A DNA stretch of 38,994 nucleotides, taken from positions 1 to 38,994 of the forward strand of contig JAGVIE010000025.1 in the NCBI GenBank assembly GCA_020056225.1. The letters run 5' to 3'. The DNA is from Bacteroidota bacterium (GTDB lineage Bacteria; Bacteroidota; Ignavibacteria; UBA10030; SZUA-254). Every line of letters begins with the position of its first letter. Within the stretch, counting starts at the first letter, position 1. Positions 37,571 to 38,994 of this stretch are shown here, in pieces. The notes beneath the pieces were generated by a model that was not told the DNA's origin, did no database searches, and worked only from the letters and a program-made list of their open reading frames with translations. Position numbers and translations under genes: made by a program.

Positions 37571-37659
37571 GCTGAAGTGGCGGAACTGGCAGACGCGCTG
37601 GACTCAAAATCCAGTCCGGCTTACCCCGGGTGTGGGTTCAACTCCCACCTTCAGCACCA
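37571..37659 (+). tRNA. tRNA-Leu (anticodon CAA)
   Basis: A class II tRNA of 89 bases with encoded CCA. The acceptor stem GCTGAAG (37571-37577) pairs with CTTCAGC (37649-37655), followed by discriminator A and CCA (37657-37659). The anticodon stem CTGGA/TCCAG encloses loop CTCAAAA, giving anticodon CAA (37605-37607), which reads UUG. A long variable arm lies between the anticodon and T arms. The T arm is GTGGG-TTCAACT-CCCAC (37632-37648). All stems pair, so it is functional. Confidence 0.97.
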
Positions 37660-37731
37660 ATGCAGAAGCAGCGAATGTGGGTTCTCAGCCGGAGGCTGAT
37701 CCGCTTCTGCGGAAACTCCCACCTTCAGCAC
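37631..37731 (+). repeat. Duplicated tRNA 3' end; second copy interrupted by two hairpins
   Basis: TGTGGGTTC occurs at 37631-37639 and 37676-37684. AACTCCCACCTTCAGCAC occurs at 37640-37657 and 37714-37731. In the tRNA the two blocks are contiguous and form the T arm plus acceptor 3' strand. In the second copy 29 bases (37685-37713) are inserted in the T-loop and fold into two hairpins: TCAGCC-GGA-GGCTGA (37685-37699) and TCCGC-TTCT-GCGGA (37700-37713). An alternative outer stem pairs GCAGAAGC (37662-37669) with GCTTCTGC (37703-37710). No second tRNA 5' half is present. Confidence 0.8.
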
Positions 37732-37858: not shown

Positions 37859-38994
37859 TTATTTACGCCGTTGACTGTACCATCCGGGGATTGGATCTTT
37901 CGCAAAGTAGAATGATTCCAATGTATTAAGATTTGCCGGATCGGCTTGACCCATATCATTTGCATAACGAGCCATCGAATACCACTCGGGCATATAACCT
38001 ACCGGTTTGTTATTTTCATACAACGGATCACCATTTGTATACCAGGACGTCGGCATAAAGTTACCCCATCGTACTACATCGATAGTTTTCTTCTCGTATC
38101 CTAAGATGACCTCTGTAACTCTATCTTCTTTAATAAGGTATTTTACGAGCCGAATTTCACCCTGCGGCAATAAATCCCATTTGTACCAACGAACACCGAA
38201 TGCAGCAGTATCATCATAAACGTAACCGATACTAGCGTTCACAAGATTAGCAATGCCGGGACCAAGTTTTATATGATTGTCGAACCTGACACTGTCATTC
38301 CTGATGATCGTGAATCCGCCCGGCGATACATTCCTGACCTCTTTTGGACCAAAGATCGGTAATAAAGATGGAGGTATCGGCTGTCTAACATATTCATACC
38401 AGGCAGCGGGTAGGTCGACATATAACTGAGGGTCAAATAAAATTATTCCTACGTCACTGTCAAGCGTATCATCATAATTCACTACACTCGCGTCAGGATT
38501 AATGTAGTTTATTATATTAAAGAATGGTTTCCTCCTCGCGTGCATCTCGAGCACATATCTGTTTCTAACGCGTACATTTGCCGGGTTGAAATGCATGCCT
38601 GATAATCGTGATGTAGTGAAGTTTGTACTCTGCGTCCATGTTTCACCGCCGTCGGAAGTTGCCAATATAGTACCGCCATCGCCTATTGCTCTTCCGCGGT
38701 TGCTATCGACAAAAGTGACTTTATAAAGATTTGCTGAGACCGGAGTTTCTTTTTTAGCCCAGGTTTCACCTAAATCGGTTGTCTTGAGGATAGTTCCATT
38801 ATCACCGACGACCCACCCAACTCTGTAGTCAAATGCATTAGCCCCTTTCGGTCCAAAGAAAATTCCTCGCAAAGTAGATGTTGTGGTACTTGTTCGGGAA
38901 TTCCATATTGCACCCGCATTTTTCGAGATTGCAATAGCGCCATTAGCACCGACAATGATGCCTGTATCATTCGCGAAGAAAACCGAGTAAAAAT
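37859..38994 (-). CDS. Ycf48/BNR-like repeat surface protein, partial at window edge
   Basis: The reading frame is open to the right edge, so the start is outside the window; 377 residues are visible. The N-terminal visible part has Ycf48-like (BNR) propeller repeats: VFFANDTGIIVGANGAIAIS, VGWVVGDNGTILKTTDLGETW, GRAIGDGGTILATSDGGETW. The remaining ~260 residues (for example GGFTIIRNDSVRFDNHIKLG) match no domain I recognise. The protein ends PIPGWYSQRRK with no T9SS sorting domain. In FCB bacteria such repeats are common in large secreted proteins and do not imply photosystem assembly. Methionine-like starts inside the window, such as TTG 38872, are not the true start. Confidence 0.75.
   Translation of the reverse strand, partial: FYSVFFANDTGIIVGANGAIAISKNAGAIWNSRTSTTTSTLRGIFFGPKGANAFDYRVGWVVGDNGTILKTTDLGETWAKKETPVSANLYKVTFVDSNRGRAIGDGGTILATSDGGETWTQSTNFTTSRLSGMHFNPANVRVRNRYVLEMHARRKPFFNIINYINPDASVVNYDDTLDSDVGIILFDPQLYVDLPAAWYEYVRQPIPPSLLPIFGPKEVRNVSPGGFTIIRNDSVRFDNHIKLGPGIANLVNASIGYVYDDTAAFGVRWYKWDLLPQGEIRLVKYLIKEDRVTEVILGYEKKTIDVVRWGNFMPTSWYTNGDPLYENNKPVGYMPEWYSMARYANDMGQADPANLNTLESFYFAKDPIPGWYSQRRK

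Follow-up and report, generated by a model that had tools for sequence, protein, structure and literature searches.

Introduction

A duplicated tRNA 3' end is a well-known sign of integrase attachment sites. REP sequences and REPINs, with their RAYT transposases, and Rickettsia palindromic elements are short dispersed palindromes, some of which lie between genes, and in fungal mitochondria, for example those of Allomyces, double-hairpin elements made of adjacent GC-rich hairpins spread through the genome. GIY-YIG enzymes are, as far as is known, DNA nucleases. In T-even phages, SegB and other free-standing GIY-YIG homing endonucleases are encoded beside tRNA genes, and SegB is implicated in cutting tRNA-containing DNA and drives recombination that multiplies the tRNA-nuclease segment in tandem; in the available part of that account, how SegB spares its own genome is an open question (PMC13096335).

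The stretch of DNA analysed here (the window, 38,994 nucleotides, contig JAGVIE010000025.1 of the Bacteroidota assembly GCA_020056225.1) contains a tRNA-Leu(CAA) gene followed on the same strand by a hairpin-interrupted copy of its own 3' part. This trailer (37660-37731) is likely to be an ORF-less derivative of a tRNA-parasitic, probably mobile, cassette family.

Results

The tRNA-Leu(CAA) unit of the window

The initial annotation had described the T arm and acceptor 3' strand of tRNA-Leu(CAA) as recurring behind the gene, with the second T-loop split by a 29-nt double hairpin, and the comparison bears this out (Table 1). The tRNA-Leu parts TGTGGGTTC (37631-37639) and AACTCCCACCTTCAGCAC (37640-37657) are repeated at 37676-37684 and 37714-37731 with 27 of 27 nt identical; the 18-nt part is an exact repeat, and the match stops at the first C of CCA. 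As the flank of tRNA-Leu(CAA) matches its own tRNA over 18 nt and the tRNAs of other amino acids, across the whole genome, over at most 9 nt, the repeat is beyond chance. The insert (37685-37713) consists of two perfect hairpins, TCAGCC-GGA-GGCTGA and then TCCGC-TTCT-GCGGA.

In the predicted minimum-free-energy fold of the trailer, the T-stem copy is topped by both hairpins (z -2.53, with 3 of 200 shuffles as low). An alternative stem proposed to span the insert, GCAGAAGC (37662-37669) with GCTTCTGC (37703-37710), is present as letters but goes unused in this fold and was dropped as a trailer structure. When the tRNA and the trailer are folded jointly, the copy is predicted to compete with the tRNA's own 3' strand. 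An Rfam search of the whole window at the gathering score returned no family besides tRNA itself, and the ORFs of the window include no GIY-YIG ORF in this unit. The earlier remark that no element lies between the two copies holds for the window, but several relatives carry a GIY-YIG ORF in that very place.

Table 1. Features of the tRNA-Leu(CAA) unit and its surroundings, in window coordinates
Feature	Coordinates	Strand	Evidence
tRNA-Leu(CAA) gene, intact and with its CCA encoded; cassette host	37571..37659	+	ARAGORN; Rfam tRNA 59.5 bits
16-nt linker with ATG right after CCA; site of the GIY-YIG ORF in some relatives	37660..37675	+	
Copy of the T-arm 5' side (TGTGGGTTC); tRNA-side part of the plugged copy	37676..37684	+	
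First hairpin of the insert (6 bp, GGA loop), placed after T-loop TTC	37685..37699	+	
Hairpin 2, 5 bp, loop TTCT; 14-nt version of the usual 15-nt hairpin	37700..37713	+	
Copy of the T-stem 3' strand and acceptor 3' strand, 18/18 nt; flank-side cassette end	37714..37731	+	
Neighbouring gene outside the cassette	37859..38872	-	

Recurrence of plugged tRNA copies and of the double hairpin

The 201-nt window region was searched against 60 genomes (its own and 59 relatives), and among the matches listed the insert was found behind other tRNA genes. In 14 of 20 fetched loci, a hairpin-interrupted copy comes after the very tRNA that it repeats (Thr, Ser, Arg, Pro or Val); in the remaining loci, a Gly case (L053) is partly alike, one stretch has two tRNAs and no copy, and four have no tRNA. 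Other tRNA genes therefore do carry the same kind of trailer, a point that the initial annotation had proposed to check, and the one-off local duplication that it had named as the alternative is out, since the insert and plugged copies recur at other tRNA genes and in other genomes.

A bias-free survey of tRNA surroundings comes from the 44 tRNA genes of the window's own genome, where 450 nt around each gene were compared with that gene. By a strict criterion, such own-tRNA copies accompany seven of them (Ala(GGC), Asn, Leu(CAA), one Met, Phe, Thr(CGT) and Val(TAC)); copies in a more broken state can be seen by eye at Pro(CGG) and Ser(CGA). Directly upstream of tRNA-Val(TAC) (L057, G000:C45) a whole pseudo-tRNA-Val can be discerned by eye, whose acceptor stem is compensated (GGACGCT/AGCGTCC), whose anticodon arm is replaced by a long hairpin and whose T arm is a mini version; it could still fold. 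ORF-less 5' fragments stand upstream of tRNA-Ala(GGC), tRNA-Met and tRNA-Phe (L209, L163 and L147, respectively), each with approximately the first 16-22 tRNA bases, a long hairpin and a second hairpin, which reads AGAATCCCG..CGGGATT in the Ala and Met fragments; Phe has two copies.

A strict double-hairpin pattern occurs at 94 places in 27 of the 98 genomes of the order, and the reversed pattern at none. Of these places 87 distinct ones were read, with two identical-sequence repeats counted once and G092:C73, G092:C140, G074:C130, G027:C264 and G027:C286 left out. A tRNA lies within 1.5 kb at 33 of the 87 when both strands are considered (23 of 87 upstream on one strand alone), and the 40-nt flanks match the nearby tRNA by at least 10 nt at 26 of 87, compared with 3 of 87 for one random tRNA. 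As there is no tRNA within 1.5 kb in the fetched stretch at the other 54, the double hairpin may be an independent repeat. The REP-like palindrome suggested in the initial annotation is thus apt in so far as the family is dispersed and palindromic; a RAYT/REPIN identity was rejected, as no strict double hairpin is found within 1.5 kb on either side of the 11 Y1-transposase (Y1_Tnp) loci of the genome. At L078, L101, L109 and L111, double hairpins tip inverted repeats that are not derived from tRNA.

A small GIY-YIG gene in the full cassettes

In relatives, an ORF of about 80 amino acids encoding a GIY-YIG domain often stands between the tRNA and the plugged copy, on the tRNA strand. A full cassette is a small GIY-YIG gene and a loop-plugged partial tRNA copy beside an intact tRNA gene on the same strand. 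At tRNA-Ser(GGA) in L040 and L044, for example, an 89-aa GIY-YIG ORF with its ATG directly after the tRNA separates the gene from the plugged copy. In L039, L040 and L044 the nuclease ORF runs through the T-arm copy, and its stop is the TGA formed by hairpin 1 (..GGCTGA). A GIY-YIG ORF also stands beside tRNA-Leu(CAA), the host gene in the window, in L010, L014 (where it looks frame-shifted), L019, L020, L023, L025, L027, L033 and L107; the L107 unit has a double hairpin at the same T-loop place as the window, and L022 is an ORF-less tRNA-Leu(CAA) unit with a different hairpin.

Pfam PF01541 scored above its cut-off in five of five tested ORFs of full cassettes. The nuclease is a bare domain of about 80 amino acids with no further family match, and the residues Y, Y, R, H and E, which we take to be the GIY-YIG active site, are invariant in 60 of 60 ORFs. 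The closest solved structures by sequence are UPF0213 (PDB 1zg2 and 1ywl, E 6e-13 and 7e-11), followed by SLX1 (3e-7) and, weakly, I-TevI. Nine of ten computable ORF pairs gave a dN/dS of 0.05-0.24, four of the ten having a dS above 1 and hence rough ratios; the tenth (0.63) compares two tandem copies, one of them with a stop codon, and a further four of the 14 pairs gave no ratio owing to absent or saturated silent change. Judged by these ratios, the cassette ORFs are under purifying selection. In the second tandem tRNA-Asn cassette of the window's own genome (G000:C47:7352-7606), the GIY-YIG ORF contains an in-frame TGA and is decaying beside an intact copy.

Within the own genome, five of nine GIY-YIG matches lie 4-419 nt behind a same-strand tRNA, the largest distance belonging to a unit that comes second in a tandem pair; three weaker GIY-YIG ORFs (L056, L059 and L062) have no tRNA within 1.5 kb. 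For the best match per genome in 30 genomes of the order, among the matches listed, a same-strand tRNA stands within 1.5 kb in 28 of 30, these loci having matched an alignment built from tRNA-linked ORFs and so not being a random GIY-YIG sample. In a wider scan, 84,980 species were each represented by a single genome and searched with two short protein patterns; of the 208 confirmed relatives the best 80 were retained, again not a random GIY-YIG sample but the best for the Ser-clade alignment. At 68 of these best 80 of 208 loci a same-strand tRNA lies within 400 nt, with an opposite-strand tRNA too at one locus. The 68 comprise Bacteroidota (8 of 9), Ignavibacteriota (10 of 11), Chlorobiota (2 of 2), Cloacimonadota (1 of 1), Omnitrophota (4 of 4), Margulisiibacteriota (2 of 2) and many Patescibacteria lineages; the other 12, some of them near contig ends, have no same-strand tRNA within 400 nt and include both of the two Verrucomicrobiota. 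Phage carriers were considered and set aside, as none of 58 pattern matches on viral contigs was confirmed as a relative of the Ser-clade alignment (A2). The cassette family is widespread among the genomes searched.

Copies of the adjacent tRNA and their plugged loops

Among 115 elements from the order and the named loci, 89 contain a chained copy of their own tRNA, where pairing with tRNAs of other amino acids would give 6.2, and 26 are without a recognisable tRNA copy. Two mirror layouts occur, tRNA-ORF-3' copy or 5' copy-ORF-tRNA, and the 5'-copy layout accounts for 61 of the 89. By longest common substring against all other tRNAs of the set, the adjacent tRNA is the best far-side match in 41 of 48 elements, two of 50 having been dropped for too short a far-side sequence. 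The flank-side end of the copy lies at most 1 nt from the tRNA terminus in 75 of 89 copies, and the ORF-side end does so in 4 of 89; of the two ends, the flank-side one is nearer to its terminus in 82 copies and farther from it in 3. Such flank-side ends fit insertion at a tRNA gene with the native end displaced. Such an insertion would be expected to leave a donor-recipient mosaic, native towards the flank and foreign towards the ORF. Mismatch of the copies to their own tRNA is 0.19, 0.15 and 0.12 per base, no more than a weak gradient of this kind over 41 rows of which several are mispaired with the wrong tRNA. Long plain tRNA matches of 70 nt occur in L182, L184 and L204. The units read span about 70-400 bp. 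Between tRNA and copy stands a GIY-YIG ORF or nothing (16 nt in the window), and no integrase gene was found on the element in the loci read.

In 71 of the 89 copies an insert forms a hairpin of 6 bp or more, with the intact tRNA still beside the copy, and in 18 there is none. Of the 121 inserts of at least 12 nt, 88 have a stem of at least 6 bp, compared with a mean of 4.8 (maximum 8) when the letters are shuffled, and 69 of these 88 touch a loop, compared with 47.9 expected anywhere in the same copy. They fall in the T-loop (24), the anticodon loop (24, arm replacements included), the D-loop (21), the segment from base 22 to the anticodon loop (12) and elsewhere (7). Within an isotype, different genera share hairpin positions more than chance predicts (0.31 versus 0.207 shuffled, 1 of 1000 shuffles).

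The most frequent insert, seen 32 times, is exactly 30 nt long and consists of two 15-nt hairpins with the cores GCC-NNA-GGC and GCC-TNN-GGC, with no tRNA base lost. It is alike in Patescibacteria tRNA-Gln and Ignavibacteria tRNA-Ser records and present in Omnitrophica records, and the window carries a 29-nt version of it. The 32 inserts represent 30 distinct sequences, in which the outer pairs covary (score 0.374 versus 0.107 shuffled; 98.1% of cells paired versus 83.0), with two of five measures unremarkable, namely both-side changes (6 versus 4.3, reached by 51 of 500 shuffles) and pair types (10 versus 8.4, reached by 95 of 500). Other isotypes have other plugs. Pro(CGG) copies have a perfect hairpin of 16-17 nt (slightly longer in L188) instead of the 17-nt anticodon arm, and in Asn copies of either layout the replacement covers tRNA positions 37-46.

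The nuclease tree, filled and empty sites, and tandem arrays

A tree was built from 59 ORFs, one duplicate ORF having been dropped and L192 being unlabelled. When thinned to 47 rows, one per genus and isoacceptor, the tRNA amino acid changes 10 times along the tree (minimum 7, shuffled mean 25.5) and host family 26 times (shuffled mean 27.2). In the unthinned tree of 58 rows, the corresponding values are 10 versus 29.9 for isotype and 26 versus 34.0 (minimum 28) for host family, which here carries some signal as well, though much less than isotype. With 30 of 56 inner branches open and many forks weakly supported, the tree nevertheless tracks tRNA isotype far better than host.

Both tRNA-Ser(GGA) and tRNA-Leu(CAA) are filled in some syntenic relatives and empty in others. 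The tRNA-Ser(GGA) site is filled in G007 and G009, while G001 has two units with the tRNA off the contig, and it is empty in G013, G000, G008 and G010, with homologous downstream flanks; G013 (empty) and G007 (filled) belong to one genus, and their flanks at this site are 83 and 81% identical. At tRNA-Leu(CAA), a homologue (35-40% identity) of the neighbouring gene at 37859..38872 follows the tRNA in G007, G010, G013 and G005, and none of these four syntenic sites has a tRNA copy within 450 nt. By a substring test, a copy stands beside tRNA-Leu(CAA) in 9 of 28 relatives' loci. Tandem arrays also exist, with units of 109 nt (5.8 copies), 92 nt (5.2), 140 nt (7.0) and 303 nt (2.1), the last with the ORF inside.

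Discussion

We give a probability of about 0.7 to the reading that these units are homing-like cassettes in which the tRNA sequence serves as homology arms and the plugged loops are protected sites, the window trailer being an ORF-less derivative. On a naive chromosome, where the tRNA gene is unplugged, the nuclease would cut that gene within or close to a loop; the cassette would then be copied in by recombination, for which the tRNA sequence provides homology on both sides. Each insertion would rebuild the tRNA gene, so that the flank-side end of the copy would be the displaced native tRNA end. The hairpins would take the cut site out of the displaced copy, which we propose is safe because that site is plugged, and may keep the repeats too short for easy recombinational loss. 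Given its position directly beside a tRNA gene on the same strand, the cassette is probably read from the tRNA promoter. ORF-less units such as the window trailer may be deletion derivatives or may have moved in trans. A counterpoint to this reading is that the intact tRNA beside the ORF should be a target too; the tandem arrays may arise from occasional cutting of that intact gene at a filled site. Other points that weigh against it are the 26 of 115 elements in which no copy is recognisable, the 18 of 89 unplugged copies, the 54 of 87 double hairpins away from tRNA genes, the 12 of 80 loci that lack a same-strand tRNA within 400 nt, the weakness of the mosaic gradient and the missing ORF of the window unit.

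It is rather unlikely that the hairpins are instead an independent parasite, resembling REP sequences or the Rickettsia palindromes, which lands in hairpin loops, with the tRNA copies as hairpin-tolerant debris of GIY-YIG insertion and the hairpins uninvolved in it. Such a parasite would account for the 54 of 87 double-hairpin places away from any tRNA, for the unrelated inverted repeats topped at four loci and for a GCC..GGC core that is nearly fixed while the outer pairs covary. It would also suit the flanks of 159 sites, which pair over at least 5 bp in 87 compared with 55.6 when flanks are swapped and over at least 7 bp in 20 compared with 12.8 (maximum 21), an excess modest enough that a general preference of the double hairpin for inverted-repeat tips was discarded; the motif is symmetric under reverse complement, so its "opposite strand" count in this test is meaningless. 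An independent parasite sits poorly, however, with a hairpin in 71 of 89 copies, with the sharing of hairpin positions within an isotype across genera, and with the quite different hairpin sequences that other isotypes have at these places (Asn 36/47, Pro(CGG) 28/45, in tRNA positions), from which plugging seems to matter more than sequence.

The remaining explanations fare worse. A toxin-antitoxin or defence module, in which the GIY-YIG protein cleaves tRNA as RNA and the plugged copy, once transcribed, acts as a decoy or an antitoxin RNA, would agree with the isotype fidelity of the nuclease tree, the plugging of anticodon, D and T loops, the same-strand layout and a trailer that folds better than shuffled sequence; we consider it improbable, as GIY-YIG enzymes are known to cut DNA, SLX1 and, weakly, I-TevI are among the sequence relatives with solved structures, most copies lack one tRNA end, some are long plain matches, and a decoy has no need of a flank-side end that stops at the tRNA terminus. 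The better-than-shuffled fold is likewise what a structured trailer RNA, released on tRNA processing and kept for its own sake, would give, as the initial annotation had suggested; four syntenic relatives have no copy at tRNA-Leu(CAA), similar units occur on many different tRNAs and the tRNA-Ser(GGA) unit is present in one and absent from another genome of a single genus, which leaves this explanation quite improbable. The annotation had also raised a relic attachment site, and the duplicated tRNA end does probably mark an integration event. That an ordinary integrase-type island left it, a tyrosine recombinase having duplicated the tRNA 3' end, is very improbable, given the GIY-YIG ORF at the corresponding place in relatives and the mirror-image layout with the tRNA 5' end that most copies follow; the units are also only about 70-400 bp long, with GIY-YIG as the ORF in them, and their copies are plugged at loops.

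Taken further, the homing-like reading can be joined to a more tentative one, possible but doubtful in its entirety, of a new class of mobile element in Bacteroidota/Ignavibacteriota and many small-genome candidate lineages. The tRNA gene would act as both promoter and homology arm and be rebuilt at each insertion, next to a loop-plugged copy; recognition of the tRNA gene in its folded (cruciform) form would fall to a minimal SLX1-like nuclease; and the double hairpin would be a built-in signal for immunity and for movement of ORF-less units in trans. As tRNA genes are among the most conserved bacterial targets, a homing-like cassette would, if the reading is true, represent a new design of selfish element, one that parasitises tRNA genes without breaking them, follows one isotype across hosts and plugs loops against self-cutting. 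It would account for pseudo-tRNAs, duplicated tRNA ends and tandem hairpin arrays of uncultured lineages, and the plugged positions would predict the cut site of each nuclease clade. Isotype-specific targeting by a bare GIY-YIG domain poses a recognition question that is directly testable.

No such cassettes are described among the matches listed in open-licence PMC full text, and as far as that literature goes the family is so far undescribed. The adjacent hairpins are common to the cassettes and the fungal double-hairpin elements, although the latter are mitochondrial and the cassettes bacterial, and we know of no tie between the fungal elements and a plugged tRNA copy with an isotype-specific nuclease. 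Among GIY-YIG proteins, the single-domain UPF0213 proteins are similar in size to the cassette nuclease, and SLX1, a relative of it by sequence, is named a structure-specific endonuclease; to our knowledge, no tRNA-linked mobility has been attributed to either. We file the cassettes with free-standing GIY-YIG homing endonuclease cassettes, as candidate rather than proven members. SegB and the cassettes are alike in having a GIY-YIG gene beside tRNA genes and in their link to tandem arrays (PMC13096335). They differ in that SegB, in the available part of its description, is phage-borne and has no apparent preference for a tRNA isotype, whereas the cassette nuclease lineages mostly keep to one isotype (PMC13096335). 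Partial tRNA copies and hairpin-plugged loops do not appear in that part of the SegB account (PMC13096335), whereas the cassettes have both.
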